Virus record (IMG/VR): IMGVR_UViG_3300009431_000033
Location: 1-43,598 of that record
Length of the DNA: 43,598 nt
Source: a virus
Strand: one strand, 5' to 3'
The position numbers and the translations under genes were made by a program. Shown piece after piece: positions 16,210-43,598 of this stretch. The notes beneath the pieces were generated by a model, which did no database searches, was not told the origin of the DNA, and was given only the letters and a program-made list of their open reading frames with translations. How positions within the stretch are numbered: position 1 is the first letter of the stretch; the number at the start of each line of letters is the position of its first letter.

Positions 16210-16230
16210 TGTGAATCCAATACAGAAGGT

Positions 16231-16238
16231 TTTAAATA
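16231..16238 (+). promoter_or_regulatory. TATA box of antisense RHH gene (leaderless)
   Basis: TTTAAATA on the plus strand preceded by purine-rich ACAGAAGGT (BRE-like). Its centre is 25.5 bp before the ATG at 16260, the archaeal TATA-to-start distance, so the transcript would be leaderless. The predicted start lies inside the opposing TATA box. Confidence 0.55.
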
Positions 16239-16252
16239 GTTGCCCTTCTTTT

Positions 16253-16260
16253 TATTTAAA
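16253..16260 (-). promoter_or_regulatory. TATA box of portal/late operon
   Basis: TTTAAATA on the minus strand. Predicted start near 16231, leaving a ~22-nt leader before the portal ATG at 16209. That start falls in the opposing TATA box at 16231-16238, so both promoters cannot be occupied at once (inference). Confidence 0.55.
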
Positions 16261-19117: not shown

Positions 19118-20192
19118 TAACCTCTTCCACCAATTTTTTTGCTGTTTTCTCCCAGGTATATTCTCTGGCAATCTCAGTCGCTCGGTTCATGGCATTATGC
19201 TTGAGAACGCTATAATCTTCATAAGCCTTTCTCATTTGTTTTTTTAGGGATTCTAAATTTGGCTGCGCCCACATGTTGCCTTCGCAATAAAATCTTGGGT
19301 CTGCTTGCTCAACTCCGTCTGATTCAATGAATAAAGTAGAGTTGTCATTGCAGAAATCCATGTGACCTGAGTTTCTGTCTTTCGTAACGATAACTGGCAT
19401 GCCACACGCCTTTGCATTAAGGATGGTTAATCCGAAAGCCTCTCCTCTTGTCGGTGCCACAAAAACAGAACTCTTTTGATAATATTCAGCCAGGTCTGCT
19501 TCTGGTGCGTATTCTGAATTAAAAACAATATTCGGATTCGCTTCGCCAGCTATGTGTTTTATCCCAGCCATGTAGTGTTCAGGTGGTTGGGGGTCCCAGA
19601 AAGTACCAATCTTCAAGACCAACTTTACCGGCTCATCTTGTTTGAACTCTTCATGGAATGCTTTGATTAGCAAATCTGTTCCCTTCCTATCCTTCGGGAA
19701 ACCGGTCCAAGAATTTACTGACAAAAATGTGAAGTCTCCCAATTGTTCTTCCTTCGGGAATTCTTTTGGTTTGTATATCTCGCTTACTCCGTATGGGACA
19801 ACGACAATCGGCGCTCCGACGCCATTCCACCTAAATAAATTCTTAGTGGCCTTACTTGGCACAAAAACCTTCTTCATCTGGTTGAACTGATGTTCCCATC
19901 CTGGCGGCAACTTGGTTCCTTCGTGTAAGAAAAAGGCATAAGGGGTCCCAAACGCATCGTGGAAATAAGAAGGATAGTCTGCAAAAATTGTAACAGTTTC
20001 TGCGGTCTTAGCATTGATTGGTTTGTTCAGTTTTTCTAATCCTTCATTAAACTCCCAGCTGTCTCTCCATAAATCAGTAGTCTGGACTTTTTCTCCGAGT
20101 TTTAGAAGCGCCTTACAAATCTCTCGATTTGCCGTCGAGATACCAGTAGGATTAAACACGTTCCCTTTGATTACTATTTTTTTCTTATCCAT
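19092..20192 (-). CDS. GT4-type glycosyltransferase
   Basis: 366 residues with a GT-B layout: N-terminal NPTGISTANREICKALL, C-terminal LVLKIGTFW and RGEAFGLTILNAKACGMPVI, the GT4 donor-site signature. The second Glu of EX7E appears to be Asn (TILNA), as in some active family members or an altered one. Start overlaps the RusA-like gene end by 8 bases. Acceptor unknown. Confidence 0.75.
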   Translation of the reverse strand: MDKKKIVIKGNVFNPTGISTANREICKALLKLGEKVQTTDLWRDSWEFNEGLEKLNKPINAKTAETVTIFADYPSYFHDAFGTPYAFFLHEGTKLPPGWEHQFNQMKKVFVPSKATKNLFRWNGVGAPIVVVPYGVSEIYKPKEFPKEEQLGDFTFLSVNSWTGFPKDRKGTDLLIKAFHEEFKQDEPVKLVLKIGTFWDPQPPEHYMAGIKHIAGEANPNIVFNSEYAPEADLAEYYQKSSVFVAPTRGEAFGLTILNAKACGMPVIVTKDRNSGHMDFCNDNSTLFIESDGVEQADPRFYCEGNMWAQPNLESLKKQMRKAYEDYSVLKHNAMNRATEIAREYTWEKTAKKLVEEVNEDSDVRG

Positions 20193-20556
20193 TGAATCTT
20201 TCTATCAGTATTTGACAGCCCTCAGTTTTTGATTGAACCTTCTTCATCGTGTGCTGGAATATTTGTTTATCATCTATCCCCAAAGCCTCAAACACACTGT
20301 CTATTAAAAACTTTTCCCTATTGGCGACATCCTTCCTTTTTGGGGTTCCCTTTTTCGTGTACCAGTCTTCGAACACATAAACAGTAACTGCCAACTCTAC
20401 TGGGGGCTCTCTTATTGGGTCTGCTGGTGTGTCGTCCACAATCTCCTTGATTCTTTTTCTTAATTCTTTCGCCTCCGGCTTGAGATATTTTCTGACACCG
20501 TGCTGGCCATAGAGATGGTTTATCGTCGGTGTTTTGAATGGTATTGTTATTATCAT
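20185..20556 (-). CDS. RusA-like Holliday-junction resolvase
   Basis: 123 residues. PTINHLYGQHG near the N-terminus and the acidic set D76 (KRKDVANR), D86 (FLIDSVFEALG) and D95/D96 (GIDDKQI) match RusA, which resolves Holliday junctions with three Asp residues per dimer subunit. Probably debranches DNA before packaging, as it lies upstream of the terminase cassette. Start overlaps the 58-residue gene stop (ATGA). Confidence 0.85.
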   Translation of the reverse strand: MIITIPFKTPTINHLYGQHGVRKYLKPEAKELRKRIKEIVDDTPADPIREPPVELAVTVYVFEDWYTKKGTPKRKDVANREKFLIDSVFEALGIDDKQIFQHTMKKVQSKTEGCQILIERFNG

Positions 20557-20729
20557 ATTCTTAGTTTTTTATAATGTTTGCATTCTCTCCCCTCACATTG
20601 TCTTGGTCTGAGAGGGAATCCGGGGTGGCATGGGAAAGAGCAATATGGAACATAAGTTCCGATAGGGTCTTTCATCGGACTGTATCTTATCACCTTTTCA
20701 AGCTTGCCTCTTTTTCTCCGTGGGCCCAT
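20553..20729 (-). CDS. 58-residue Cys-containing basic protein
   Basis: ATG at 20729 to TGA at 20553-20555: MGPRRKRGKLEKVIRYSPMK, then CSFPC, and CEGREC near the end. Four cysteines in CX3C...CX4C spacing suggest a metal site. It bridges the sugar nucleotidyltransferase and RusA genes with ATGA overlap on its 3' side. Function unknown. Confidence 0.6.
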   Translation of the reverse strand: MGPRRKRGKLEKVIRYSPMKDPIGTYVPYCSFPCHPGFPLRPRQCEGRECKHYKKLRI

Positions 20730-20733
20730 TACT

Positions 20734-21381
20734 TTATTTATCTTCCTCCCTATTTATATTTTTGTAAATTCCGTCTAGTTCGTGATAATCAACTGAATCA
20801 AACTTATTGAGGACGTCTGTGATTTGGAGTTGCTCTTCCTCGTCGGGGAGAGTTTTATCTATGCAGTCAAATAGGGTACTATCGAACATATATATTCCTA
20901 AACCTAGTAATGGTTCCAATACTTCAACATCTTTTGGCTTTTCAATAAAACTTCCGGAATCTTTATTAATTCCGTATGACTCCTTAATTAACGCTTTGTC
21001 TTCGACCTTCTGGACGCCTACCAAACAGCCACCAACTTGCTTGTGATGTTTTCTCATATCCGCTAATGAACCGTTGTAATAAATGTCTCCAAGTATCACG
21101 CAGACATCATCGTCTACTTTGTCCTTAGCCAAGTAAATCGCATGAGCAATCCCCCTTCTGTGTACCTGTTCGACATACTCCAGTTTCATGCCCTTGTATT
21201 CTGTCCCAAGATAAGTGGGAATGCTTCCGCCATTTTGAATAATGATTACTCTGTTGATTCCAATCTTGTGCATTACTTCTAGTGGGAATTCGATTAATCT
21301 TTTCCTTCTGTAGTAAAGTAGTGCTTTGTTGATTCCAGCCAGCCTTGTTGCCTTGCCTGCGGCTGGGATTATTCCTATCAT
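20734..21381 (-). CDS. Sugar-1-phosphate nucleotidyltransferase (RmlA/GlmU-N type)
   Basis: 215 residues. GIIPAAGKATRLAGINKALL is a variant of the GxGxRL...PK nucleotide-binding signature; CVILGDIYY carries the metal-binding Asp and SFIEKPKDVEVLEP the family EKP motif. Only the catalytic domain is present, without a hexapeptide acyltransferase domain. Likely makes an NDP-sugar for the neighbouring epimerase and glycosyltransferases. Sugar and base unknown. Confidence 0.8.
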   Translation of the reverse strand: MIGIIPAAGKATRLAGINKALLYYRRKRLIEFPLEVMHKIGINRVIIIQNGGSIPTYLGTEYKGMKLEYVEQVHRRGIAHAIYLAKDKVDDDVCVILGDIYYNGSLADMRKHHKQVGGCLVGVQKVEDKALIKESYGINKDSGSFIEKPKDVEVLEPLLGLGIYMFDSTLFDCIDKTLPDEEEQLQITDVLNKFDSVDYHELDGIYKNINREEDK

Positions 21382-22394
21382 AGAATTTCCTCATTCTCTT
21401 TAATCCATTTACTGATTCTCTTGAGCCCCTCTGTCGGGCCTATTTTCGGCTTCCACCCAAACATGTTCTTTGCTTTTTTGTAGTTGCATACGAAGTAGTA
21501 TAAGTCTCCGAATCTTCCTGGTTCTTTTTTGATAGTTTGGTGTGCTTCATTTATGATTGATAGCTCAGTTAGGCATTCGCCCAAAGAGATTGCATTGTCT
21601 ATTCCTCCGCCGATGTTATAGATTCCTTTGGCGCCTGTGTTAAACCACATCTCAAAAGCTCTAGCTGCGTCCTCAGCATAAAGAATGTCTCTGACTTGCT
21701 TATCTGTACCGAAGATTGTTATTGGTCTTTCTTTGATTGTTCGAATGGCGAAGTTGGCTACCCAGCCGTGGTCCATGCCTCCAAACTGTCTCTCCCCATA
21801 CATACCAGTCAATCGGAAAGACGCGGTCCTCATCCCGTATGTTTCGGCGAAAGCCTGGGTGTATAGTTCGGTTGAGCGCTTGCTAACATGCAATGGAGTT
21901 AGGTCTCCCTTTAATATAGCTAGTCCCTCATCAAACTCGGCTATATCATTTACAAATCTGGTTGTATCTTCTGTTAGCTCGTTGTTAATATCGTTTCCGT
22001 AGACATGGACTGATGAGCAGTTCACGAATGGAATTCCCTGTACTCGAGCGATGTTGAGCATATTTACAACTGACATTACATTGTTGCTGGCGTCATAAGC
22101 TGGGTCCTCTATTGCTATTGTCATTGCCGGCTGCGCCGCACAGTGTATAATAAAATTGATTCCCTTGAAGCTATTGCTTGTGACGTCTCTACAATCTGCC
22201 TTGTGAAACTCAACCCCCAAGCTTTCCAGAAACTTCAGATTGTGCTCCCTGGATTTTTTGGTATCAAAATTTGCTCTAACTAATTCATAATCAGTCAGGT
22301 TGTCAATCCCAACAACTTCCCATCCCCTTTTGGTGAAATATTCTGCCACATGCGTCCCAAGGAATCCAGCTACACCAGTAATTAGGACTCTCAT
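21378..22394 (-). CDS. NAD-dependent sugar epimerase/dehydratase (extended SDR)
   Basis: 338 residues from ATG at 22394 (MRVLITGVAGFLGTH), chosen because GGAGG precedes it by about six bases. GxxGxxG at 7-13 binds NAD. The active-site motif should read YxxxK, but here K172 follows T-P-L-H-V-S, putting Leu168 where the Tyr belongs. Otherwise the layout (VNCSSVHVYG, RQVRDILYAEDAARA-like) is normal. Start overlaps the radical-SAM gene stop. Could be an altered or inactive enzyme. Confidence 0.75.
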   Translation of the reverse strand: MRVLITGVAGFLGTHVAEYFTKRGWEVVGIDNLTDYELVRANFDTKKSREHNLKFLESLGVEFHKADCRDVTSNSFKGINFIIHCAAQPAMTIAIEDPAYDASNNVMSVVNMLNIARVQGIPFVNCSSVHVYGNDINNELTEDTTRFVNDIAEFDEGLAILKGDLTPLHVSKRSTELYTQAFAETYGMRTASFRLTGMYGERQFGGMDHGWVANFAIRTIKERPITIFGTDKQVRDILYAEDAARAFEMWFNTGAKGIYNIGGGIDNAISLGECLTELSIINEAHQTIKKEPGRFGDLYYFVCNYKKAKNMFGWKPKIGPTEGLKRISKWIKENEEIL

Positions 22395-22828
22395 TCTTTC
22401 CTCCATACTCTTTGGTTTGAACTACCAATTCTCCCCTTGATTCTTTTAGTTGAGTCATATCTTCCTGTTATTACCTTGTCGCATAGTTGGAATGCAATCT
22501 CCTTGTTTGGGTCACTACTTATTTCGTCTCGAGTATATCCTGTGAACATTGTTACTGGCAAGTCTGTTGCTGCTTTTAGTGCAGTTAGGAAAACTGCTGT
22601 ATCTTCTGCTTGAAAAAGCGGGTCTCCGCCGAGAAGGCAGACTCCGTCAATCGCTTCTGTTTTAACTAAGCTTAGCAATTCGGAGACTTTCATATCTCTT
22701 CCGCTTTCTGGGTCTTGTAGCTCTTTAGCGTAGCATCCCGGGCAAGCATGCTCACATCCGGCATAATGAATCTCATAAAGTACTCCTTCTTTGTGGGCGC
22801 AGTTATGTTCAGTTCTATTTATCTTCAT
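22391..22828 (-). CDS. Radical SAM activase, NrdG-like
   Basis: 145 residues from ATG at 22828 (MKINRTEHN) preceded by GAGGTG. C25-x3-C29-x2-C32 (CEHACPGC) binds the 4Fe-4S cluster; LLGGDPLF corresponds to the GGEP-type SAM motif; the C-terminal IGSSNQRVW is typical of class III ribonucleotide reductase activases. No NrdD partner lies in the window, so it would act on the host enzyme or on another substrate. Overlaps the upstream glycosyltransferase by 14 bases. Confidence 0.75.
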   Translation of the reverse strand: MKINRTEHNCAHKEGVLYEIHYAGCEHACPGCYAKELQDPESGRDMKVSELLSLVKTEAIDGVCLLGGDPLFQAEDTAVFLTALKAATDLPVTMFTGYTRDEISSDPNKEIAFQLCDKVITGRYDSTKRIKGRIGSSNQRVWRKE

Positions 22829-23876
22829 TGAACACCTCAAACATTTTGCTACAGAATTTATCCCAAGTCAGATTCTCTTCTACCCACATGTTTTCGGTAA
22901 CTGTCTGGATTGCGATTTTATCTTTGTCAGTACAAGAAAACTCTAATATGCTCTCTACAAATTCTTCATCTGACTTACATACGTTTCCTATTTTGTTTTT
23001 TGCTAGGATTGATGAGCAAGGGATTGTGTCTGCGACAAACGTAGGGCAACCCGCGCTCATTGATTCAAATACTGATAAAAAATTACCCTGGCCTGCCCCT
23101 GGGAAGATTGAGCAATCTGAGATATTGTAAAGCTCTCTGATTTTTTCTCTGGGGAGGAATCCGGTTAAAATCACATCTCCCATCAAGCCGTACTCTGCTA
23201 CCTTCTGCCTTACTAGGTCTAAGTAGCCAGGCACCTCTTTCCCCGCCAGAACTAACTTCGCATGCGGAATCTTTTCCTTAATTTTTTTGAATATCTCAAT
23301 CGTTCTTAACTGGTTTTTGGTTGGGGCTATGAATCCTATTTGGGAGATTACAAAATCATCGCCAGTTAAGCCGAAGAAGCCGTACGATGGCGGATGCCCA
23401 TAATCACTATTCGAGAAGAACTCCCAGTCTATTCCGTAGTTGATTACATGAGCTTTCTTCTTGTAAAGAGCTAGAAATCTTGCTGCGTTGAATTCGTCTC
23501 CGACAACAACCTTGAAATCCTTAGTGCATCGCAAATCGTTCTCTTTTGGGGTCGGATTTTCGTGGTGGGGCGGCTCATTGCAGAGCCAAGTAACATTAGC
23601 CTTCTTTGGGAAAACCATCAAATGCCCTGGGTCATTATGAACATTAACAATATCAAAGTCGTCAACTATTTGCTGCAAAAAGACGTGCATTGATGGAAAG
23701 TCGTCACAGAAGATTAATCTGGCTTCTTTTAGGTCTGCGCGCATGTCGTCGCACATTTCTGTTGTGATAATATTCACTTCGTGATGTCTGTTGGTTAGCC
23801 AGTTAGCTAATTGGACAATTACCCTTTCGGCTCCGCCATAAATCCAACAAGACGGATTAACTAGAAGAATTTTCAT
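22815..23876 (-). CDS. GT4-type glycosyltransferase
   Basis: 353 residues: MKILLVNPSCWIYGGAERV is the classic GT4 start (GGAE), with VISQIGFIAPTKNQ and LVLAGKEVPG in the second Rossmann domain and FLSVFESMSAGCPTF at the donor site (second Glu kept, first replaced). ATGA overlap with the small gene upstream. Confidence 0.8.
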   Translation of the reverse strand: MKILLVNPSCWIYGGAERVIVQLANWLTNRHHEVNIITTEMCDDMRADLKEARLIFCDDFPSMHVFLQQIVDDFDIVNVHNDPGHLMVFPKKANVTWLCNEPPHHENPTPKENDLRCTKDFKVVVGDEFNAARFLALYKKKAHVINYGIDWEFFSNSDYGHPPSYGFFGLTGDDFVISQIGFIAPTKNQLRTIEIFKKIKEKIPHAKLVLAGKEVPGYLDLVRQKVAEYGLMGDVILTGFLPREKIRELYNISDCSIFPGAGQGNFLSVFESMSAGCPTFVADTIPCSSILAKNKIGNVCKSDEEFVESILEFSCTDKDKIAIQTVTENMWVEENLTWDKFCSKMFEVFNEDK

Positions 23877-24019
23877 TGTCTCTTAATTAGGGTCAATTTA
23901 ATTATTTGGGCTCCGTCGTCAACGACCTCTAGCTTATCGTCCATTCTTACTTCAGCCACAATAATGTCTCCAAAATTCACGTCTTCCAGTAGGCTCTTGA
24001 TATATTCTTTAAGACGCAT
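23873..24019 (-). CDS. 48-residue protein beside radical SAM/SPASM enzyme
   Basis: ATG at 24019 (MRLKEYIKSLLEDV) has AAGGAGG 4-5 bases upstream, so it is preferred to the longer ORF from 24055. The acidic middle (VRMDDKLEVVDDGAQ) and strand-rich end give no family. Its start overlaps the end of the SPASM gene. It could be a substrate of that enzyme or a small accessory domain; unproven. Confidence 0.55.
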   Translation of the reverse strand: MRLKEYIKSLLEDVNFGDIIVAEVRMDDKLEVVDDGAQIIKLTLIKRQ

Positions 24020-25166
24020 CGCAGCCTCCTTGCTTATACAGAATACATCTCTCACAATTTGCTGGCACTTCGCCTCTTTGGTTTTGCGCCTTCATTTCTT
24101 CGAATCTTTCCCAAATTACATTGATGTCTTCTTTGAGTACGTTGCCCAAAGCAGTTCTGACCTGGAATGGTCTGTCGTTCTGTTCGTTCTGCGAACAGCA
24201 TGCGATGACGGTACCATCAACAAAGATGAAGGGCATACTCCAAGCAGAACAAGTTTTCATATCTTTCTTATTGACAGTATTGACGTTGAAGCCTACTCTT
24301 AGTCCTAATTCTGCTGCGCGCTTCATTACCGCATCTTTTTGCTCGTCTGTGATTCCAATCTCCATTCCTTCAATCTCTGGGTAGGTGTGGAGGATTTGGG
24401 TGAACTGGACTCTTTTGCAATCAACCCCGAGGGAATCAATCATATCCAAGTAAGGGACCATTTCGTGAATATTCTCTGACGAGACAATCATGTGGAACCA
24501 GAATTCTGGCCATGGAGAGTTTGCTTCGCGCTTTAGTTTGTCTAGCCGCTTGATTCCTTCGATTACTTTATCCCAACTTGAGCCCTCTCTTAGCTTCTCG
24601 TAGGTTTCCTTCGTGGAGGCGTCCAAACTAACATACAGCTTGTCCATCTTAATATCAACCAAGTGCTGTGCGTTTTCCTCATTCATGTAGATAAAATTAT
24701 CGAAATTCTCAATATAAATCCCCTTCTTCTTGATGTAATCCATCATCTTTGGAAATTCTGGATTGCAGTAAGATTCTCCGATGCCTGTTAGCCCAATCCA
24801 CTTCAATTGTGGGAACTGGTCTACAATGTGCTTGAATTCTTCGAAAGTCATGTTCTTGTTCTTCTCTTTCCAGTGGGTGTGTTCGCACATCTTGCATTTT
24901 AGATTACAAAAGGTTGAGACCTCAATCTCCAGGTAATGTGGTTGCATCTTTTTAGTGTAGTGAATCTTCAATAACTCTGGGTTTTGAGTCCAGTAAAAAG
25001 CAGAGAAATATGTCCAATTGTAAGTCCACCTTAATCCCTTTTCTTGGTATCTGGGATTTCCTACAAAGTCTTGGAAAGCTTGGTGCATTATGTTAACTTC
25101 GACTGCGTCGATTTCTTTGTCCGGATGACTTCCCCCTCGCATTGTGTAGTCAACAAAGTCAGTCAT
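24009..25166 (-). CDS. Radical SAM/SPASM-domain protein
   Basis: 385 residues. C87-x3-C91-x2-C94 (CNLKCKMC) is the SAM-radical cluster site; GLTGIGESYCNPEF holds the SAM-binding motif. The C-terminal ~85 residues have SPASM-type cysteines (TCSAW, IACCSQ, CERCILYKQGGC). Such enzymes modify peptides or sugars and recur in glycan clusters. Overlaps the upstream membrane-protein gene by four bases. Confidence 0.85.
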   Translation of the reverse strand: MTDFVDYTMRGGSHPDKEIDAVEVNIMHQAFQDFVGNPRYQEKGLRWTYNWTYFSAFYWTQNPELLKIHYTKKMQPHYLEIEVSTFCNLKCKMCEHTHWKEKNKNMTFEEFKHIVDQFPQLKWIGLTGIGESYCNPEFPKMMDYIKKKGIYIENFDNFIYMNEENAQHLVDIKMDKLYVSLDASTKETYEKLREGSSWDKVIEGIKRLDKLKREANSPWPEFWFHMIVSSENIHEMVPYLDMIDSLGVDCKRVQFTQILHTYPEIEGMEIGITDEQKDAVMKRAAELGLRVGFNVNTVNKKDMKTCSAWSMPFIFVDGTVIACCSQNEQNDRPFQVRTALGNVLKEDINVIWERFEEMKAQNQRGEVPANCERCILYKQGGCDAS

Positions 25167-25426
25167 CTGAATACCTCCCTATACGCAGCCTCCCCGATTG
25201 CGCCCCCTACGGTAACAGAAATTAACATGGCAAGCCAATTCCAAAAACCCCAATGCAAGCTGTCAACAATCTCAGTTGCTGGAAGAAAAATAAATGAAGC
25301 CAATAGCATAAGAACCGCAGCAAACCAAATAGCGAAAGCAGCCTTTTTATTCCAAGCCCAAAAGACACCCATAACTAATCCAACAATTAGCGCCCTAAAT
25401 ATTGTTACCCAAACAGATTCTATCAT
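25163..25426 (-). CDS. Small membrane protein with three hydrophobic helices
   Basis: 87 residues, hydrophobic at about 6-24, 29-49 and 60-80 with few charges. Lies between the dehydratase and SPASM genes with four-base overlaps on both sides. Could be a membrane anchor for glycan modification or a holin; no family recognised. Confidence 0.6.
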   Translation of the reverse strand: MIESVWVTIFRALIVGLVMGVFWAWNKKAAFAIWFAAVLMLLASFIFLPATEIVDSLHWGFWNWLAMLISVTVGGAIGEAAYREVFR

Positions 25427-26391
25427 TTTGACCTCTCGTGTTCAATTATATCTTTTAGAGTTTGTTCCATTTTGATTTTTGGTCTCCAGCCAGTCTTAGT
25501 CCGGAACTTAGCTGCGCTTCCAACCAAAGTAGGCAAGTCGGATGGGCGCATTCTTTCTGGGTCTTCTTCTATTTTGATTTCTGCCGTTGAGAGGTCAATC
25601 AGCATTTGGAGGATAGATTCCATCGTGTAGGCTCCTCTTGTCCCAGAACAAATATTGTAAACATCTCCGGCTTCGCCTTTTTCAAGCGCTAGCCAGTAAC
25701 CATTAACCATATCTCTCACATCAGTGAAATCTCTTATCGCTTCCAGGTTCCCAACTTTGATTGTTTTTTGTTGTCCCTTTTCAATGGCTACAATCTGCTT
25801 AGCGAATGTTGCGCATACGAAAACCTCTCCCCTCCTGGGTCCGGTGTGATTGAAACCACGCGTTCGCACAACGTGCAATCCGTATGACTTATGATATTGG
25901 TATCCAAGTAAATCCTGGGCTACTTTACTCACCCCATAGGGAGAAAGCGGTAGTAATGGCTCATCTTCAGTGATTGGGTTCGGCAAACAAGCCGCGTGGC
26001 CATATTCTTCAGAAGAGCCGGCAATCTGAATCTTTGGATTGTAATCTGGAATCTTCCTAACTGCTTCGAAAATGTTAATCTGAGAAACCGTGTTATTCCG
26101 CATTGTGTGAGATGGGTTTGTCCAGCTTGCCTTTACGAATGATTGTGCTGCTAGATGGAAAATCAAATCCGGTTTCACTTCCTCAATTACCTCTCTAACT
26201 GCTGCTGGGTCAACTAAGTCTGCTTCGTGGAGTGTTATCTTGTCTCTTAAATGATTGATGTTGACTGTATCGCTTCGCCAACGGTTAGTCCCATGCACTT
26301 CGCAACCTTTCTCTAAACAAAGTTCTGCCATGTGGCTACCCACAAATCCAGTAATCCCAGTAATTAGGACTCTCATTCTTCTGTCTGGCAT
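25423..26391 (-). CDS. gmd: GDP-mannose 4,6-dehydratase-like SDR
   Basis: 322 residues. NAD-binding TGITGFVGSH (11-20), GSSEEYG (125-131) and the catalytic Y152-GVS-K156 are all present, with RGFNHTGPRRGE and RDFTDVRDMVNGYWLAL typical of GDP-mannose dehydratases and related GDP-6-deoxy sugar enzymes. ATG at 26391 overlaps the preceding stop (TGATG); an AT-rich TATA-like stretch at ~26413-26420 also sits 25 bp upstream. An internal ATG at MRVLITG is an alternative start. Confidence 0.8.
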   Translation of the reverse strand: MPDRRMRVLITGITGFVGSHMAELCLEKGCEVHGTNRWRSDTVNINHLRDKITLHEADLVDPAAVREVIEEVKPDLIFHLAAQSFVKASWTNPSHTMRNNTVSQINIFEAVRKIPDYNPKIQIAGSSEEYGHAACLPNPITEDEPLLPLSPYGVSKVAQDLLGYQYHKSYGLHVVRTRGFNHTGPRRGEVFVCATFAKQIVAIEKGQQKTIKVGNLEAIRDFTDVRDMVNGYWLALEKGEAGDVYNICSGTRGAYTMESILQMLIDLSTAEIKIEEDPERMRPSDLPTLVGSAAKFRTKTGWRPKIKMEQTLKDIIEHERSK

Positions 26392-26513
26392 CAGAACACT
26401 GCTCCTATTAATAATTTAAATATCCAAACTGAGAACAAAGTAACATTCGCTGCCCAGAGCAAAATAAAGAACCAAGTAAACAGGTCTTTTATATCAAAAT
26501 CAACTCTCATCAT
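26391..26513 (-). CDS. 40-residue single-pass membrane protein
   Basis: ATG at 26513 (MMRVDFDIKDLFTW) with GGAGGTG a few bases upstream; hydrophobic from about residue 14 to the end (WIFKLLIGAVF). The stop overlaps the dehydratase ATG (TGATG). Function unknown. Confidence 0.6.
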   Translation of the reverse strand: MMRVDFDIKDLFTWFFILLWAANVTLFSVWIFKLLIGAVF

Positions 26514-26658
26514 TCACCTCCTTCAATGTCTCTTGAACTATCCAACTAACAAAGCATTCCATGTGTTTTTTGAAATTTTGGTAAACATTCGGGTATTTTT
26601 CGATGAATCTGTCTCTGATTTTTTCTACGATTAGCTCTTCTGTAGTTTTAGTTTTCAT
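26500..26658 (-). CDS. 52-residue helical protein
   Basis: ATG at 26658 (MKTKTTEELIVEKIRDRFIE) lies inside the chaperonin 3' end in another frame, with AAGGAG just upstream. Charged, predicted helical, one Cys. Overlaps the following membrane protein by 14 bases. Might be a chaperonin partner by proximity; no family recognised. Confidence 0.55.
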   Translation of the reverse strand: MKTKTTEELIVEKIRDRFIEKYPNVYQNFKKHMECFVSWIVQETLKEVNDES

Positions 26659-28069
26659 CTCCTTCTCCTGCTAATATGGCATCTAATTTAAGAATTTGAT
26701 TTGTGACTTGGGTTGCTGAGCTGATTGCATGCAGTTTAACCAAGACGGGCTCGAAAACTCCCTTCTCTCTAGCGTTTGAAATCCCAGAGACCATATCAAC
26801 CCCTTGATTTGAATCACCTTTTGCGTGAAGTGCTTTTAGGTTCGTTAGAGTCTCAATCGCGTCTAGCCCACAGTTTTCGGCTATGATAAGTGGGATGGAT
26901 TCAATCGCATCAGCAAATTTCTCTATGGCTAATTGTTCTTTGCCGCCTAATTGTAATTCTCGTAAATATTTGGCTGTTTGAATCTCAATGGCGCCTGCGC
27001 CGACCACCATATCCAAATTATGTCGAAGTAGTCTGAGTACATCATCCAATGACCTCTCAATCTCATCAAGAACGTGGTCTGTTGGGCCGTGGACAACTAG
27101 AGTCTCATAATCGCCTTTTACGTAAACCGCGCCGGGGTTTGAGTCGGCTCCTTTCATATAAGTGACCTCGGCCTGGCCTATGTGGTTCTCATCAATCAAA
27201 TCAGAACTTGTGATTGCCTTACTGCCTGTAGATAAGCAGATTGTATCAATATCAATTGGTCTAAAGATGGCTACGCCGGCGATTCCGGCCTCGGTCAGAT
27301 ATGCGTCGAATTCTTTGCATGTGTCGGTGTAAAATACCCATTCAACTCCCATTTCCTTCAGCTTATCAACAATCCCTCTTTTGAGTTTGGCATCTGCTTC
27401 TTCTATCTCGACTAGGTCTTTTGCATTGGTCACCTGAAAATTGTCCATCTTCAAATTCACCGGGAAATTCAAAACTGCTACTTTACCGTTTACGTGATTG
27501 GGCATTTGTTCGTCTCTAGTGAACCCTTGGAAGATGTGCCCTTTGAATATCTCGGTTTTGAACGGGTCAGAGCTTTTGATTTTGTAAGTCTTCAATTCGT
27601 CTGGATTTTTGGCGTCTTTTAGAATATCAATAAAGTGCTCTACTAATTCAGGTGTGATTTTCGTCCCAAACGCCGTTCGCATGATTTTCTCTTTGTCTGG
27701 CTCTTCGGATACGCCTTTTAGAAAATTCATAGCATTAGCAAGGGCTATATTATACCCATTAATCACCACCGTAGGATGGATGCCTTTTTTGGTTAGTTCT
27801 TGAGCGTTACTTAATAGATTACCGGCCAATACGACTGAGGTAGTGGTTCCATCGCCTACGGCCTCTTCCTGGGATTTAGCCAACTGCTTAAACAAATCAA
27901 CAATCGGATTGCCGCCCTTTAGATTCCCAACAATAGTGGCTCCGTCGTTTGTTAGTGCGACGATTTGACCTTTTGCTACAATCATCTTATTCATGCCTCT
28001 CGGGCCAAGTGTACTCCGAATCAAATCAGCAAAATTAATCGCCAGCTGGATATGACTGACATCATCCAT
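26648..28069 (-). CDS. Group II chaperonin (thermosome-like)
   Basis: 473 residues, against ~540-550 for cellular thermosome subunits. ATP-site motifs: STLGPRGMNKMIV (19-31), TNDGAT (40-45), GDGTTT (72-77), DEIERSLDDVLRLLRHN (335-351) and VVGAGAIE (355-362). The apical region (~165-310), including the helical protrusion area, is present but short. About 20 N-terminal residues of cellular forms and the Gly/Met-rich tail are missing. Folds proteins in a double ring; here perhaps capsid or fibre. Start overlaps the 62-residue gene. Confidence 0.92.
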   Translation of the reverse strand: MDDVSHIQLAINFADLIRSTLGPRGMNKMIVAKGQIVALTNDGATIVGNLKGGNPIVDLFKQLAKSQEEAVGDGTTTSVVLAGNLLSNAQELTKKGIHPTVVINGYNIALANAMNFLKGVSEEPDKEKIMRTAFGTKITPELVEHFIDILKDAKNPDELKTYKIKSSDPFKTEIFKGHIFQGFTRDEQMPNHVNGKVAVLNFPVNLKMDNFQVTNAKDLVEIEEADAKLKRGIVDKLKEMGVEWVFYTDTCKEFDAYLTEAGIAGVAIFRPIDIDTICLSTGSKAITSSDLIDENHIGQAEVTYMKGADSNPGAVYVKGDYETLVVHGPTDHVLDEIERSLDDVLRLLRHNLDMVVGAGAIEIQTAKYLRELQLGGKEQLAIEKFADAIESIPLIIAENCGLDAIETLTNLKALHAKGDSNQGVDMVSGISNAREKGVFEPVLVKLHAISSATQVTNQILKLDAILAGEGDEN

Positions 28070-30097: not shown

Positions 30098-30118
30098 ATT
30101 ATGTACAGGGGTTACCTC

Positions 30119-30126
30119 TATTTAAA
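30119..30126 (-). promoter_or_regulatory. TATA box of leftward array
   Basis: TTTAAATA in AAAAGTTTAAATAGAGG, centred 25.5 bp from the ATG at 30097 (leaderless). Confidence 0.65.
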
Positions 30127-30177
30127 CTTTTGGGTTACTTATGCTCTATTTTACCTAAATAAGGCCCATATACTTGA

Positions 30178-30190
30178 GGTACTAAGTACT
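30178..30190. promoter_or_regulatory. Operator-like near-palindrome GGTACTaAGTACT
   Basis: Six-plus-one-plus-six inverted repeat with one mismatch; 11 of 13 bases equal the perfect palindrome GGTACTcAGTACC at 37937-37949, which lies beside another promoter. Confidence 0.5.
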
Positions 30191-30243
30191 ACTATTACAA
30201 ATTCCTTTATACCAAAGCCCCCCCTACTAACCTAATAATATTA

Positions 30244-30260
30244 TTTTATCGACGATAAAA
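30244..30260. promoter_or_regulatory. Perfect palindrome TTTTATCGaCGATAAAA
   Basis: Eight-base arms around one base, extended on both sides by TAATA/TAATA with a one-base bulge, in the control region. A regulator site or origin element is likely; the binder is unknown. Confidence 0.55.
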
Positions 30261-30448
30261 GTAATAATTACCTAACATATCCATATCTATCCAACAATAA
30301 TAATAATCATAATACCCATATTGTCTTATTGGGTTTGTGTTCTATGAGGGATAGTGTTGCCTTCGGCGAGTGGGAACATAATAGTATAATATGTTGTAAT
30401 TCGTTAGTAGTTTGTCACTAAAACAGAAAGACACTGCATAACGAAAGG

Positions 30449-30456
30449 TTTATAAG
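30449..30456 (+). promoter_or_regulatory. TATA box of rightward array
   Basis: TTTATAAG preceded by ACGAAAGG (BRE-like), centred ~25 bp before the ATG at 30478 (leaderless). Confidence 0.65.
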
Positions 30457-30477
30457 CATAATTTGGCTAAGGAATGT

Positions 30478-34580: not shown

Positions 34581-34719
34581 TAAGATGATGGAGATACTGA
34601 AAAAATTAGAAGACTACAATATATTCTTAATTAGTTTTGATAATTTGGGCGATGTAAACATAGACAACCTAAAGGTTCACCCAGACTATTTGTTTGATGT
34701 GTTGGAGGATTTTGAATGA
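34570..34719 (+). CDS. 49-residue acidic protein
   Basis: ATG at 34570 (MDNDKMMEILKKLEDYNI) after GGGAGG. VHPDYLFDVLEDFE ends it. No family; precedes the ATPase with ATGA overlap. Confidence 0.5.
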   Translation: MDNDKMMEILKKLEDYNIFLISFDNLGDVNIDNLKVHPDYLFDVLEDFE

Positions 34720-35309
34720 AGATTGAGAAGTTGTTTAATAAGCCGAAGATTATTGGGGTTATTGCTGATGTAAATCAAGGTAAGTCGAACTTTGTGTATC
34801 ACTTGATTACTCTGATTAAGAAGAGAGTTAGCTTGGTGACTTATGGACTTCGTAAAATTGTTGGTGGTAGAGTGATTAGTTCTCTCGAAGAGTTGGAGCA
34901 GATTAAGGATAGTGTGATTGTGATTGATGAGTTTTTTAGTCTGTTCGACTTAGACAATAGGCACAAGCGGAAACTAATCGAGAATACATTAAGGATGATT
35001 AACCACAACAACAATATTTTAATCTTGGTTGGATTGCCTGAGAATTTCAAGAAGTTTATTTGTGGAAAACTCGACGAGGTGTTCTTCAAGAAGGTGACTT
35101 ACGGTGATTTCATCAACGGGGGCAGAGCCAAAAAGATTATTATGAGTTATATGGGGAGAGAAAAGGGAAGTTATATTTTAGATGTCGGAGTTGGAGAGGC
35201 GTTGCATTACGATGGGTTACACTACGAACTAATCAAAGTTCCGTATCTTAAGGAGTTCGATACTAAGGCAAAGAATAAAACACTCCTAAAAACGTGTGGG
35301 AAAATGTAG
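34716..35309 (+). CDS. P-loop ATPase (Zot/AAA-like)
   Basis: 197 residues. Phosphate-binding loop IADVNQGKS (16-24), Walker B SVIVIDEF (66-73), a short NTPase core, and a basic tail. Closest in feel to small P-loop ATPases of filamentous and archaeal viruses; may act in replication or transcription. The amber stop at 35307-35309 is followed by 32 in-frame sense codons to TAA at 35408, overlapping the next ATG. It is the only clear ATPase in the rightward block. Confidence 0.7.
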   Translation: MKIEKLFNKPKIIGVIADVNQGKSNFVYHLITLIKKRVSLVTYGLRKIVGGRVISSLEELEQIKDSVIVIDEFFSLFDLDNRHKRKLIENTLRMINHNNNILILVGLPENFKKFICGKLDEVFFKKVTYGDFINGGRAKKIIMSYMGREKGSYILDVGVGEALHYDGLHYELIKVPYLKEFDTKAKNKTLLKTCGKM

Positions 35310-36484: not shown

Positions 36485-36505
36485 GTCTCTACTAGGGAAG
36501 GGTAG

Positions 36506-36512
36506 TATTTAT
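36506..36512 (-). promoter_or_regulatory. TATA-like ATAAATA
   Basis: 25 bp upstream of the ATG at 36484, preceded by CGAAACAC. It lies between that gene and the tRNA cluster. Confidence 0.4.
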
Positions 36513-36523
36513 GTGTTTCGGAA

Positions 36524-36594
36524 TGGGAACACCAGGAATCGAACCTGGGACTTCTGGTCTGGAGCCAAATATGATACCATTACACCATGCTCCC
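36524..36594 (-). tRNA. tRNA-Trp (CCA)
   Basis: Minus strand GGGAGCA...TGTTCCC acceptor pairs fully (one G-U); anticodon loop CTCCAGA gives CCA; T-loop TTCGATT with CCAGG/CCTGG stem. No intron, unlike many archaeal tRNA-Trp genes. 3' CCA not encoded. Confidence 0.9.
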
Positions 36595-36595
36595 A

Positions 36596-36669
36596 TAAGA
36601 CCGAGAGGACTTGAACCTCCAATCTCTGCCGCATCAGGACAGTGCATTAACCAATTATGCTACGGTCTC
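36596..36669 (-). tRNA. tRNA-Ile (GAT)
   Basis: Acceptor GAGACCG/CGGTCTT (first pair G-U), D-stem GCAT/ATGC, anticodon loop CTGATGC (GAT), T-loop TTCAAGT. Reads Ile ATC/ATT. Confidence 0.85.
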
Positions 36670-36671
36670 AA

Positions 36672-36745
36672 CGGCCCTTAGTGGACTCGAACCACTCACC
36701 TTCGGTGCAACAGACCGACGCTCTACCATGATGAGCTAAAGAGCC
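36672..36745 (-). tRNA. tRNA-Asn (GTT)
   Basis: Acceptor GGCTCTT/AAGGGCC, D-stem GCTC/GAGC, anticodon loop CTGTTGC (GTT), T-arm AGTGG/CCACT with TTCGAGT. Complete cloverleaf. Confidence 0.92.
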
Positions 36746-36747
36746 AA

Positions 36748-36816
36748 AGCCTGTACCCGGATTCGAACCGGGGACTCCTCCTTACAAGGGAGGTATTATA
36801 GCATAACTCTACAGGC
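36748..36816 (-). tRNA. tRNA-Thr (TGT) with degenerate D-arm
   Basis: Acceptor GCCTGTA/TACAGGC, anticodon arm CCTCC-CTTGTAA-GGAGG (TGT), T-arm CCCGG/CCGGG all perfect. Between acceptor and anticodon stem lie only ~16 bases (GAGTTATGCTATAATA): the D-loop lacks the GG normally contacting the T-loop. Confidence 0.75.
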
Positions 36817-36819
36817 ATA

Positions 36820-36890
36820 CGCCCACTGCGAGAATTGAACTCGCGGCTCCCGGTAGACAGCCAGGTGTTTTGCCACTAAACTAAGCGGGC
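36820..36890 (-). tRNA. tRNA-Asp (GTC)
   Basis: Acceptor GCCCGCT/AGTGGGC, D-stem GTTT/AAAC, anticodon loop CTGTCTA (GTC), T-arm GCGAG/CTCGC with TTCAATT; discriminator G as usual for Asp. Confidence 0.92.
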
Positions 36891-37031
36891 CTGAGTCGGC
36901 TCCGTCAAGAACGATAGCAGCGAATCTTAACGAAACCGAAACATCCATACCGGCCCAAGGGCTACAAGTGCTACACCAACCGAAGTTAAACCAGCCCCCG
37001 ATAAGAGCAGCAAGCGTTGGAGGGAAGCCCA

Positions 37032-37101
37032 TAGCGAATGCCGGATTCGAACCGGGCCTGATGAGCATGAGTCACCCGTGCTACCGTTACACTACATCGC
37101 T
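37032..37101 (-). tRNA. tRNA with CAT anticodon (Met or Ile2), imperfect acceptor
   Basis: D-arm GTG/CAC with GG in the loop, anticodon loop CTCATGC (CAT), T-loop TTCGAAT. Acceptor AGCGATG/ATTCGCT pairs only over five bases and the T-stem has one C-C mismatch, or a bulge. It is separated from tRNA-Asp by 141 bp in which no feature was recognised. Confidence 0.7.
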
Positions 37102-37102
37102 T

Positions 37103-37270
37103 TTAATCGTCGTCATCGAAAGGCCAAGAGTGATGAACAAGTTCCCAAAGAACTTCTTTCGCACATCTTGAACACAATCTGATAGACCTGCTGTTGTGAG
37201 ACGACTTGATTGCCCCATTGGCCTCATCTTCGCACATGTCACATTGCTTATCTATGTTTTCTGTTTCCAT
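37103..37270 (-). CDS. 55-residue zinc-finger protein
   Basis: METENIDKQCDMCEDEANGA ... LCSRCAKEVLWELV: CxxC + CxxC, acidic C-terminus (DDDD). GGAGGT five bases before the ATG. Ends two bases from the tRNA(CAT) gene. Confidence 0.65.
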   Translation of the reverse strand: METENIDKQCDMCEDEANGAIKSSHNSRSIRLCSRCAKEVLWELVHHSWPFDDDD

Positions 37271-37271
37271 T

Positions 37272-37439
37272 TTACCTCCATTTGTTTTTATGATTCAACT
37301 GCCTTCCGCATTTTGCGCAATGGATTGCGCTTACGACCGTTGCTTTTTTGCCGTTGCCGGATGACGTTTTCTTAACGTAGGTACCTCTATGAGTGCAAAA
37401 CCCGCAATATAAATTTATTGGTTCCTCACTTATTGTCAT
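37272..37439 (-). CDS. 55-residue zinc-ribbon protein
   Basis: MTISEEPINLYCGFCTHRGT ... IHCAKCGRQLNHKNKWR: CGFC + CAKC with a basic linker. Starts inside the 3' end of the HNH-like gene; stop is one base before the next ATG. Confidence 0.65.
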   Translation of the reverse strand: MTISEEPINLYCGFCTHRGTYVKKTSSGNGKKATVVSAIHCAKCGRQLNHKNKWR

Positions 37440-40471: not shown

Positions 40472-40505
40472 TAGTTTAGTTCAATTAAAAAATAAAAAAT
40501 AAATT
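40472..40505 (-). terminator. T-tract between small genes
   Basis: Minus strand TTTATTTTTTATTTTTT after the stop at 40514. Confidence 0.5.
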
Positions 40506-40513
40506 TTGTTTAA

Positions 40514-40816
40514 TTACATATCAAACAATGCACTTATTGGATTTGTTACTTTGTCCAAATGCTTTTGCTTGGCGATGTCTAATATTCCAATGACTGTCAA
40601 AGGGTCAACCTGTTGACCAAATGAGAATTGTTCTTTCATCTCAAATCCATCAGCTGTTTTTTTGCCGGCTGCGCAGACAATCAAGATGCTTGGTTGTTTC
40701 AGTGCGCTCGCCAGGTCCTTCTTAACCAGCTTTATATTCTTCGCCATCCGTTTTGCACGCTCTTTCTTTTCGTCGAAACCAGCCTTCTTCGTGGATTTTT
40801 TTGTTTTCTTTTTCAT
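40514..40816 (-). CDS. 100-residue basic protein
   Basis: ATG at 40816 (MKKKTKKSTKKAG) with AGGAGGT just upstream; the ORF from 40858 includes promoter sequence. Lys-rich N-terminus, then SILIVCAAGKKTADGFEMKE and a helical end. Function unknown; possibly DNA-binding. Confidence 0.5.
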   Translation of the reverse strand: MKKKTKKSTKKAGFDEKKERAKRMAKNIKLVKKDLASALKQPSILIVCAAGKKTADGFEMKEQFSFGQQVDPLTVIGILDIAKQKHLDKVTNPISALFDM

Positions 40817-40858
40817 TTTTACCTCCTGTTGATTTATTAATATTGAAGTGTCTTTCAC

Positions 40859-40866
40859 TATTTAAA
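40859..40866 (-). promoter_or_regulatory. TATA box, same 17-base block as at 28558-28574
   Basis: TTTAAATA in AAGTTTTAAATAGTGAA; start near 40837, ~21-nt leader with AGGAGGT to the ATG at 40816. Confidence 0.65.
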
Positions 40867-41116
40867 ACTTGCCTTTCCTGGCTCTGCCGACCATCCTCAT
40901 AATTTTTTTTAGTTCGTCGAAATGATTTTGCGCCAGGTTGATTAGAAATCCTCTTCGCCAACGAGCATACCACTCATAAAATTCTGTTGCTCTGCTGGGT
41001 ATGTTACGGTAACCTCTGGGATTTATACCCTTATCTTTCTCCACCCATTTTGCAGTACCGGGGGATAATCTTAGCCTAGAAATAATATCTGTATACTTTT
41101 TCGAAGGTTTTTTCAT
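40862..41116 (-). CDS. 84-residue basic protein
   Basis: MKKPSKKYTDIISRLRLSPG, Arg/Lys-rich throughout, with WYARWRRGFLINLAQNHFDE. Helical, probably nucleic-acid binding. No ribosome-binding site; sits directly after the structured-RNA region, whose last hairpin is at its 5' side. Confidence 0.5.
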   Translation of the reverse strand: MKKPSKKYTDIISRLRLSPGTAKWVEKDKGINPRGYRNIPSRATEFYEWYARWRRGFLINLAQNHFDELKKIMRMVGRARKGKF

Positions 41117-41130
41117 TGGTTGCGAACTAC

Positions 41131-41171
41131 GACTGATAATTTCTCTTTTAGAAATAAAAAAGAATCAGTCG
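41131..41171 (-). repeat. Inverted repeat CGACTGAT ... ATCAGTCG with inner hairpin
   Basis: Perfect eight-base arms enclosing ATTTCT-aaag-AGAAAT, just before the 84-residue gene. Could terminate the upstream RNA or control translation. Confidence 0.6.
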
Positions 41172-41439
41172 ATGGACTCCCTCGTGGCGTTACCGTTACG
41201 TTGACTCAAGCTCAGGACCAGGGGTCTAACGACAAAATAGTGGAGTCTCTTTGCTACTTGTGACAGTTTTGCGGGTTTAGTTATGGACGGCATTCAGATT
41301 AAAAATCAATTCTCTTTTTAACACTTCCGTTCGCACATAGCAAAACGAACATAATCCGTTCGCACATTAAAAATAGTATGCGAACTCTTTTGGGAGAGAA
41401 AAGGGAAACTGATAGCCGTCTAAGAAAATCAGCCTCCCC
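41155..41439 (-). ncRNA. Candidate structured RNA with its own promoter
   Basis: In a 312-bp gap without an ORF. A TATA box at 41461-41468 predicts a start at ~41439, exactly the base of a 12-bp stem (41428-41439 with 41402-41413, three G-U pairs). Further stems: GUUCGCA/UGCGAAC, GACUCC/GGAGUC enclosing CGUU(a)GAC/GUCAACG. A six-U run at ~41155-41160 could end it. No known family recognised. A hairpin CGACTGAT/ATCAGTCG follows. Confidence 0.5.
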
Positions 41440-41623
41440 GAAAGAGAAAGGTAGAAAGAGTATTTAAAGTTTTTCTTGTTGATGAGTCTTCCCTATTTGG
41501 ACCCGGTTTTGTGTATTTCGAACACTGTTGGTATCGGCCTTCGGCGAAGTAAATGTAACACCTGTCTTTCTTCCCCCGCATTGTGCACAGATAATTGTCA
41601 CAAGAGGTTTCTAGTTCTATCAT
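41429..41623 (-). CDS. 64-residue Cys-containing protein
   Basis: MIELETSCDNYLCTMRGKKD, then CYIYFAEGRYQQCSKYTKPG. Four Cys in two pairs imply a metal or disulfide fold. No family. Confidence 0.5.
   Translation of the reverse strand: MIELETSCDNYLCTMRGKKDRCYIYFAEGRYQQCSKYTKPGPNREDSSTRKTLNTLSTFLFRGG
41461..41468 (-). promoter_or_regulatory. TATA box of the candidate RNA
   Basis: TTTAAATA preceded by AGAAAAAC, inside the 3' end of the 64-residue gene; 25 bp before the 5' stem of the candidate RNA. Confidence 0.55.
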
Positions 41624-41633
41624 TTTACTGATT

Positions 41634-41825
41634 CTATTCGCTTAGATTATTAATCGCATCTTTCTTAGCATTCTTCTCAGCAATTTTTGCCTCAAGCTTT
41701 GCGATTTCTTCATCTAATTTTGAGATAGTCTCTTTTTCTACTTTCGTTTCTTTCTCCTCAATAGTGAATTCGAATTCATCATTTCCTACACTTTTTACAC
41801 TCTTTGTCGTCCTTATTTTTCCCAT
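41634..41825 (-). CDS. 63-residue coiled-coil protein
   Basis: MGKIRTTKSVKSVGNDEFEF, then a heptad-like helix ISKLDEEIAKLEAKIAEKNA. GGGAGGTG precedes ATG, inside the end of the GT9-like gene. Probably oligomeric. Confidence 0.55.
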   Translation of the reverse strand: MGKIRTTKSVKSVGNDEFEFTIEEKETKVEKETISKLDEEIAKLEAKIAEKNAKKDAINNLSE

Positions 41826-42687
41826 CTTTCACCTCCCTTGGTTTAGTTGATTGAACTTGTTTGTCTACCCAATCTAAACATTTTTTCATATCGTTGTCGG
41901 TAAACGTATTAATGCCATGTAGCTTCACGTCGGCATTCCGATTATTGTTGTAGGGGTTGGTGTGAATAGATGTTATTTTTCTTTTGTTTCTAAAATTATT
42001 GTGCATCTCATATCCTTCATTCAACTCACTTGTTGCACCCCAAAATACAAATCCAGGTTTGCCTACGGCCGCTCCGGCGTGCTGAAGAAAAGAATCAATT
42101 GTTACAAACGTCTTAACATGGGGAAGCAATGAGATTATATCTCTTACCTTTGCATTCGGAGAATCAATACCTTTAAATCCCATTTGATTGCCTGCTTTAA
42201 TCATTAAGACTTTATATTTTTTGCTCAACTTTCTCATTAATTTCTCTGCGAATACTGGCTTGAGACTTCTGAATGTTCCGTCTGGTTTGCCTTTGCCACC
42301 GCCCTCCCCGAATGGCTGGACCAATACGATTTCTTTATCGCAGCTTTCCACAAATGCTTGGGCTTGTTCTTCCTCTGTTTCTGTGAGATATAATTTTGGC
42401 ATAACGGATTTGTCTTCGCCATTTATTACGAGGTTGAAGCAACGAGTTACATGTTTTTTTTCTGCATAATATTCTTTCATTTTGTACGGTGTCGGCTCCA
42501 CATAATCCATCTTCTTAATTACATCGTCGAACAAATAAGGTGTGTTTGCAATATAAGTCCGCTTAACATTTGGATTGCTTAGAAATGGTTCTGGGTGATT
42601 TGTCATAATGACACTGCCTTTTTTGAGAACTCCAGTAGCTGCGATACACTTTCCGATGCCACCCATGATGTTAATTATTTTTTCCAT
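41779..42687 (-). CDS. GT9-like (heptosyltransferase-family) glycosyltransferase
   Basis: 302 residues. N-terminal IINIMGGIGKCIAATGVLKK is a GT-B start; VLVQPFGEGG and TIDSFLQHAGAAVGKPGFVF, with the D-S-x3-H-x-A-G motif, identify GT9, whose members transfer heptose from ADP-heptose. The tail is Lys/Cys-rich (DKECKKCRK). ATG overlaps the end of the HldE-like gene. Confidence 0.7.
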   Translation of the reverse strand: MEKIINIMGGIGKCIAATGVLKKGSVIMTNHPEPFLSNPNVKRTYIANTPYLFDDVIKKMDYVEPTPYKMKEYYAEKKHVTRCFNLVINGEDKSVMPKLYLTETEEEQAQAFVESCDKEIVLVQPFGEGGGKGKPDGTFRSLKPVFAEKLMRKLSKKYKVLMIKAGNQMGFKGIDSPNAKVRDIISLLPHVKTFVTIDSFLQHAGAAVGKPGFVFWGATSELNEGYEMHNNFRNKRKITSIHTNPYNNNRNADVKLHGINTFTDNDMKKCLDWVDKQVQSTKPREVKDGKNKDDKECKKCRK

Positions 42688-43052
42688 TTTGATGAATGTA
42701 TGTCTTCGACGACAGGGATGAGTTTGATTTCTCCTCCGTAACTCTCAACGAACCTTCGTTCTTCTTGGTTGATTGTTTCGATATTGTAGTCTCCTCCCTT
42801 AACATATACCAGGGGTTTAAGCTTTTTAAGCTCTTCTATTACGCTATCTACTATCCTAACTTCGGCTACGCCTTTGATTGCTAGGATTATTTTTGCTCTC
42901 TCTCGTTCGGACATAATTATTCTTCTGTCGCAACTCTCATCAGACATAACACCGACGACAAGATGACCTAATTTGCCTGCTTTTTGTAAATAATCCACAT
43001 GCCCTGCATGGAGTATATCAAACACGCCATTGGTCCATATTATTTTTTCCAT
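42675..43052 (-). CDS. HldE/RfaE-type nucleotidyltransferase
   Basis: 125 residues. TNGVFDILHAGHVDYLQKAG has the HxGH site (H15, H18); LVYVKGGDY (about 76-84) is typical of the ADP-heptose-forming adenylyltransferase branch. Ends IHSSKWKK where SSxxI normally lies. Directly follows the fibre gene (TAATG) and precedes the GT9 gene. Glycerol- or other phosphosugar activation is an alternative. Confidence 0.75.
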   Translation of the reverse strand: MEKIIWTNGVFDILHAGHVDYLQKAGKLGHLVVGVMSDESCDRRIIMSERERAKIILAIKGVAEVRIVDSVIEELKKLKPLVYVKGGDYNIETINQEERRFVESYGGEIKLIPVVEDIHSSKWKK

Positions 43053-43598
43053 TATACTATGCTAACTATAATACCTCCGCATACTGTTACTGTTGCAGCG
43101 TCGCCATTTGTGAAAGTGGCGTCTACTCCTCCGTATCCACAAGTCATAAAACAACAACAAGTTTGAACACAGTTTTGCGCATGTATACATCCACAACCAG
43201 ACGCACCATTATCACAAAGGGTCAAGTTTGCGCAGCCGCCACAAAACTCTCCATTATCTATATAAAATCCGCAACAGCAAGCACACATTCCACATTGTGC
43301 AATCACCCATCCATCACTCCCCATACCTGAACCTCCGCATGCGCAGATATTCCCACAACAAGAAATCACATCACAGTGCCCTATCGAACAATTCCCCGCA
43401 CAAAAACAACCAGCTCCAGTAACACAATCTCCAGCACAAACATTACAACAAGCAAACAGACTTCCGCAGCCAGCAGTACCTTGGTCACAAATCGTTACGT
43501 TTCCACAATTAAAACATCCATCATTATTAATTATTAAATTTGAATCACTACAAACATCTCCTACTGCGCAGACAATTCCTCCAGCACAAACATTACAA
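43052..43598 (-). CDS. Cysteine-rich C-terminus of the tail fibre (5' end off the window)
   Basis: 181 residues, open at the right edge, with 36 Cys (about 20 percent). Repeats: CGNVTICDQGTAGCG, then CANLTLCDNGASGCG, and CNVCAG. The last ~20 residues lose Cys (GGIIVSIV end). Its stop overlaps the next gene as TAATG, placing it upstream of the nucleotidyltransferase in one transcript. The 76-bp repeat and the shared frame link it to the gene at position 1. Confidence 0.75.
   Translation of the reverse strand, partial: CNVCAGGIVCAVGDVCSDSNLIINNDGCFNCGNVTICDQGTAGCGSLFACCNVCAGDCVTGAGCFCAGNCSIGHCDVISCCGNICACGGSGMGSDGWVIAQCGMCACCCGFYIDNGEFCGGCANLTLCDNGASGCGCIHAQNCVQTCCCFMTCGYGGVDATFTNGDAATVTVCGGIIVSIV
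43396..43471. repeat. Direct repeat, right copy (identical to 1-76)
   Basis: See the left copy. The window continues 127 bases past this repeat with sequence that does not match bases 77 onward. Confidence 0.95.

Follow-up and report, generated by a model that had tools for sequence, protein, structure and literature searches.

What does a promoter do that stands in front of no gene? The question is raised by a gap of 312 nt (41117–41428) between two leftward, minus-strand ORFs of a virus record of 43,598 nt (IMGVR_UViG_3300009431_000033, positions 1 to 43,598), which was analysed as a whole and is called the window here. A preliminary description of this DNA had called gaps of such length rare in the genome and proposed that this one holds a candidate new viral structured RNA with a switch-like property. 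The length it gave is exact and the rarity is real, as the only other gaps of comparable size are the tRNA cluster (36485–37425) and a divergent-promoter region (30098–30462). To our knowledge, little work has been done on non-coding RNAs in viruses of archaea.

The virus and its relatives

The window encodes an HK97-type capsid protein, a large terminase, a group II chaperonin (thermosome) and six tRNA genes. Since the chaperonin matches found in genomes are archaeal and TTTAAATA boxes precede genes of the virus, the window, as judged from its genes and signals, is an uncultured tailed virus of archaea. Its known relatives are uncultured contigs only, with a terminase identity of 51–80%, and one contig that is 99.995% identical to the window across 8466–27900 stops short of the gap. 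A DNA similarity search against phages and plasmids returned no match to the window, and a terminase-based search of genome contigs returned no provirus. Both ends of the window lie inside a repetitive Gly/Cys-rich gene; the genome is therefore probably nearly complete, with its break inside that gene. An exact 76-nt repeat occurs at 1–76 and 43396–43471. The chaperonin gene (26648–28069) is complete, its product is 27–35% identical to the cellular archaeal chaperonins found, and the gene also occurs in the relatives L003, L004, L009 and L038. The six tRNA genes (Trp, Ile, Asn, Thr, Asp, Met) are clustered at 36523–37101 and followed by an unexplained gap of 324 nt up to 37425.

Table 1. Features in and around the gap, in window coordinates
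Feature	Position	Strand	Remark
Upstream ORF, 64 aa, Cys-rich	41429–41623	−	No Pfam or PHROGs match
BRE/TATA promoter AAACTTTAAATA	41461–41472	−	First T of TATA at 41468; within 3′ end of 64-aa ORF
Predicted transcription start	41439	−	29 nt after first T, from spacing
Predicted non-coding RNA, 284 nt	41156–41439	−	3′ end placed at T6 run by prediction
Hairpin 1, 12 pairs (3 G-U), 14-nt loop	41402–41439	−	Stem 41439–41428/41413–41402
Hairpin 2, GUUCGCAUA/UGUGCGAAC	41358–41385	−	Heptamer copies 1 and 2
Heptamer copy 3, UGCGAAC	41329–41335	−	Can pair with 41127–41121
Hairpin 3, CGACUGAU/AUCAGUCG, U-rich inner stem	41130–41171	−	Holds the T6 run
T6 run, candidate archaeal poly-U terminator	41156–41161	−	Inside hairpin 3
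Heptamer copy 4, GUUCGCA	41121–41127	−	4 nt 5′ of ATG 41116; beyond the RNA if it ends at T6
Downstream ORF, 84 aa, no family	40862–41116	−	No Shine-Dalgarno, no clear own promoter
TATA TTTAAATA of 114-aa ORF	40859–40866	−	Separate
Next gene, 114-aa ORF	40514–40858	−	Own TATA at 40866

A promoter directed into the gap

The gap contains no ORF longer than 47 aa, and the longest (47 aa) is on the other strand; a tRNA/tmRNA search gave no score in it. A TATA box (TTTAAATA, 41468–41461, minus strand) with an A-rich BRE lies upstream of it, inside the 3′ end of the 64-aa ORF. The genome contains two AAANTTTAAATA sites, one being the gap promoter, as compared with a mean of 0.15 and a maximum of 1 in shuffles, and the predicted gap promoter is, by its sequence, among the strongest in the genome. 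Seven of the nine TTTAAATA sites in the genome stand 8–54 nt 5′ of an ORF; the gap TATA points into the gap, and the next ORF start is 352 nt off.

In the window and its relatives, an ATG repeatedly lies exactly 29 nt past the first T of the strict promoter AAANNTTTAAATA or of TTTAAATA itself. This spacing is found twice in the window (30126 to 30097 and 16231 to 16260) and in the relatives L036 (15267) and L077 (10016), and reading of the printed sequences added L036 2913, L077 12223 and L032 8794. Other window genes have a spacing of 50–54 nt and a short leader. The genes with the 29-nt spacing look leaderless, so their transcripts would start at or adjoining the position of the ATG. The same spacing, counted from 41468, predicts a start at 41439, exactly where hairpin 1 begins; the preliminary description had put the start on the first base of a stem, and the leaderless rule makes that observation more precise. 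The promoter rules of the virus and its relatives thus give good support to the prediction of a leftward transcript that begins at 41439 or beside it and leads into no ORF. Two of the features expected of an independent archaeal non-coding RNA gene are found here: a BRE/TATA promoter of its own, suitably spaced, and the lack of an ORF behind that promoter.

Local folding of the predicted transcript

In a genome-wide fold scan, the segments at ~41276–41450 rank best, with z-scores of −4.2 on the plus strand and −3.35 on the minus strand, and only 1 of 150 shuffles equals the three best local hairpins in summed energy. The fold of the 352-nt region on the minus strand has a z-score of −1.5, and the full predicted transcript of 284 nt (41439–41156) is no stabler than shuffles (z −0.3). 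Local folding is above chance, and that of the whole RNA is not.

The preliminary description had a 12-bp stem followed by at least three more stems and a U-run. The first stem does have 12 pairs, but nine are Watson-Crick and three are wobbles, and two further hairpins follow it (41385–41358 and 41171–41130). The U-run is present as T6 at 41161–41156, and the minus strand has no other T6 run from 40500 to 43598 (~3.1 kb). The three wobbles of hairpin 1 are G-U on the minus strand only; over the local stems, 16 wobbles are G-U on the minus strand and 6 on the plus strand, a bias that may be a modest pointer to a minus-strand RNA.

The heptamers: switch, DNA element or leader

The two GTTCGCA and two TGCGAAC copies that had suggested alternative pairings are all there, and such a quartet is unusual, arising in 23 of 2000 shuffles. 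Copies 1 and 2 pair in the local hairpin with a probability of 0.91–0.97, as compared with 0.001–0.11 for the alternatives, and the best of these, helix 3:4, coexists with 1:2 at a cost of 0.7 kcal/mol instead of competing with it. Because the ensemble favours one arrangement and helix 3:4 is compatible with it, we find no basis for the term switch. A riboswitch or switch leader, taken as two exclusive folds of similar probability, is not supported (0.91–0.97 versus at most 0.11).

The gap also contains two 13-nt direct repeats (TCCGTTCGCACAT) that are 29 nt apart, together with inverted copies. This arrangement, like the fold z-score that is equal or better on the other strand, would suit a DNA element beside an ordinary promoter, in which the GTTCGCA direct and inverted repeats act as operators or mark a replication or packaging site. 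We regard such an element as improbable: the promoter is directed into the gap, the G-U wobbles favour the minus strand, no comparable heptamer quartet was noticed when the relatives' slots were read by eye, and the GC-skew minimum (30316) with its divergent promoters lies at ~30.3 kb instead. A replication origin in the gap was rejected on account of the position of this minimum. The divergent intergenic region at the minimum itself (30098–30462, 365 nt) is a candidate replication origin.

In the main rival to a separate RNA, the stretch would serve the 84-aa ORF and beyond as a long, structured 5′ leader of ~320 nt that controls translation or early termination, because this ORF has no evident promoter or Shine-Dalgarno sequence of its own. 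The GUUCGCA copy beside the start codon would be part of the control, as it ends 4 nt 5′ of the ATG and is able to pair back to copy 3, and hairpin 3 lies just upstream of the same ATG. The T6 run comes before the 84-aa ORF, however, and the 114-aa ORF that follows has its own TATA; we consider the leader, including this part for the heptamer, unlikely but deserving of serious attention.

The equivalent slot in related viruses

The region in relatives was reached only via the terminase, the 35903 family and the SWIM-like protein; the neighbouring proteins 40862, 40093 and 41779 gave no relative for two of them and one distant relative for 40093, and an extended protein alignment contained no segment of sufficient conservation for use in a scan. 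The gene order of Cys-rich mini-ORF, gap, small ORF, 40093-family protein, SWIM-like protein and HNH recurs, with variations, in G016 (L017), G025 (L077) and G017 (L036). All three have a non-coding slot at the matching place; in two of the three this slot has the same promoter, and the next gene is served by another. In L077 (slot 9988–10361), a TATA at 10356 has no ORF behind it and the one at 10016 serves the next ORF. In L036 (slot 3600–4043), the site at 3699 leads into no ORF, and an AT-rich promoter region of its own precedes the next gene. In the L017 slot, a terminal stem of 9 bp (GGAACGAGA/TCTCGTTCC) closes an RNA-like stretch, after which come four T6 runs and a fresh promoter; no TATA was found in front of the stretch. 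An own promoter for the gene after the slot in L077, L036 and L017 argues against the leader. The slot is a tRNA-Met gene in G023 and a small ORF (49 aa) in L082; the small ORFs are of 45–49 aa, and the promoter is similar.

Once the promoter is taken out, there is no alignment beyond chance between the window RNA and any relative or among the relatives themselves (p 0.2–0.9). Homology between the L036 and L077 slots was rejected, since the shared part is the promoter only, and a two-sequence alignment of them gave no credible structure. The window and L017 have 75-nt domains that look alike by eye, but the similarity is not significant (p 0.23). For the closing helices at the termini, in the window as in the relatives, p values are only 0.04–0.11, with boundaries that were set by eye. 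Recurrence is therefore claimed for the slot and its promoter, as read from these sequences, and not for the RNA body, which is not demonstrably homologous.

That the slot holds a tRNA-Met gene in one relative, a 49-aa ORF in another and non-coding DNA elsewhere would also be expected if the gap were decayed or unrecognised sequence, such as what is left of a tRNA or small ORF where the cargo varies, its hairpins being due to chance; the ordinary folding of the whole RNA agrees with this. Against it stand the local structure, which is the strongest in the genome, the intact promoter, and the failure to find a tRNA or DNA similarity to related contigs in the gap, and we consider decay quite improbable.

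Several further observations were made in these contigs. The stretch 9271–9481 of L017 is a possible independent structured RNA in the equivalent slot. L022 (G005) begins with a perfect 11-bp stem (GCGATTATGAG/CTCATAATCGC) around two hairpins (1–120, z −7.6, at the contig start); after the stem, inverted repeats of 9 and 12 nt (91–106 with 340–352) bracket a 70-aa ORF, which may represent an RNA or a mobile element. In L036 (7927–9000) and L077 (1312–2391), a gene for an AAA-type ATPase is seemingly interrupted by an intein-like sequence (C-terminal ...ISHN/ITHN), accompanied in L077 by an HNH-like ORF.

Known families and antisense targets

The gap was searched with the Rfam 15 covariance models at the gathering threshold and, in a small search, at permissive E values up to 5. 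It gave nothing even at E 5; the only matches above gathering in the window are tRNAs elsewhere, and the slots of the relatives gave chance-level matches only. The known Rfam cis-regulators thus do not match, which again speaks against the leader.

A 16-nt exact repeat (35154–35169/41392–41407) would make the candidate RNA antisense to the gene at 34716–35309. The match is significant against shuffles (block shuffle 0.006), but an exact match as long occurs in 11% of ordinary genome segments, and a viral antisense RNA was rejected. The duplex energy of the match is no better than that of shuffled seeds.

A candidate non-coding RNA gene

The gap credibly holds a candidate structured RNA with a gene-less promoter. 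The best explanation, to which we give somewhat less than an even chance, is that this tailed virus of archaea has here an independent and perhaps fast-evolving gene for a non-coding RNA. The observed match to the promoter, its 29-nt spacing, the local structure, the absence of a gap ORF longer than 47 aa and the slots of the relatives count in its favour; the z-score of the whole RNA, the lack of an alignable relative, the tRNA-Met gene and ORFs of 45–49 aa in related slots and the lack of an Rfam match count against it. Of the proposed new viral structured RNA, the leftward promoter without an ORF and the local fold are supported; a new family is not supported, as the relatives yielded no homologue of the RNA body.

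We infer transcription, both ends and function of the RNA as follows. The host archaeal TBP and TFB would bind the promoter at 41472–41461, RNA polymerase would start at 41439 according to the spacing rule at neighbouring genes, and an RNA of ~284 nt would be made, its 5′ end capped by hairpin 1. Transcription would stop at the poly-U run, although the position of T6 inside hairpin 3 speaks somewhat for read-through. Hairpins 1 and 2 would protect the RNA and present an unpaired linker (41401–41386) and a less structured 3′ half. By analogy with other small viral RNAs, the RNA may act in trans by pairing with host or viral RNA or by binding protein, rather than by catalysis.

It is conceivable, though rather unlikely, that a locus dedicated to a non-coding RNA is retained in this lineage of tailed archaeal viruses between the gene for the Cys-rich mini-protein and an early operon, with a conserved promoter and an RNA body that is replaced or evolves too fast to be aligned. 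If so, such a body is what would be expected of an RNA engaged in an arms race against RNA of the host or its defence machinery. A gene-free slot that is defined by a promoter and sits at a matching place in several viruses supplies exact coordinates for testing, and the 29-nt spacing rule offers a way to find further such RNAs in archaeal virus genomes.

Comparison with known systems

The antisense RNA of the Halobacterium virus phiH (Stolt and Zillig 1993, as cited in PMC6210493) is a precedent for a non-coding RNA of an archaeal tailed virus. As the citing article presents it, the phiH RNA was shown experimentally and is antisense to a viral gene, whereas the gap candidate is a predicted transcript, is intergenic and has no significant antisense target in the virus. 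Viral tRNA genes are likewise short non-coding RNA genes, and that of G023 occupies the equivalent slot, but the gap itself has no tRNA or tmRNA score. With structured 5′ leaders and riboswitches the candidate shares the position of a structured RNA 5′ of an ORF, with a stem near the start codon; unlike them, it belongs to no Rfam class, and the downstream genes in the virus and its relatives tend to have their own promoters. The large phage RNAs GOLLD, ROOL, OLE and HEARO are also intergenic structured RNAs of viral genomes. They are larger and strongly conserved, and none of their Rfam families matches the gap. If real, the gap RNA would be a new orphan among the small viral non-coding RNAs, a kind already known, and its interest would lie chiefly in the recurring slot that is defined by its promoter.
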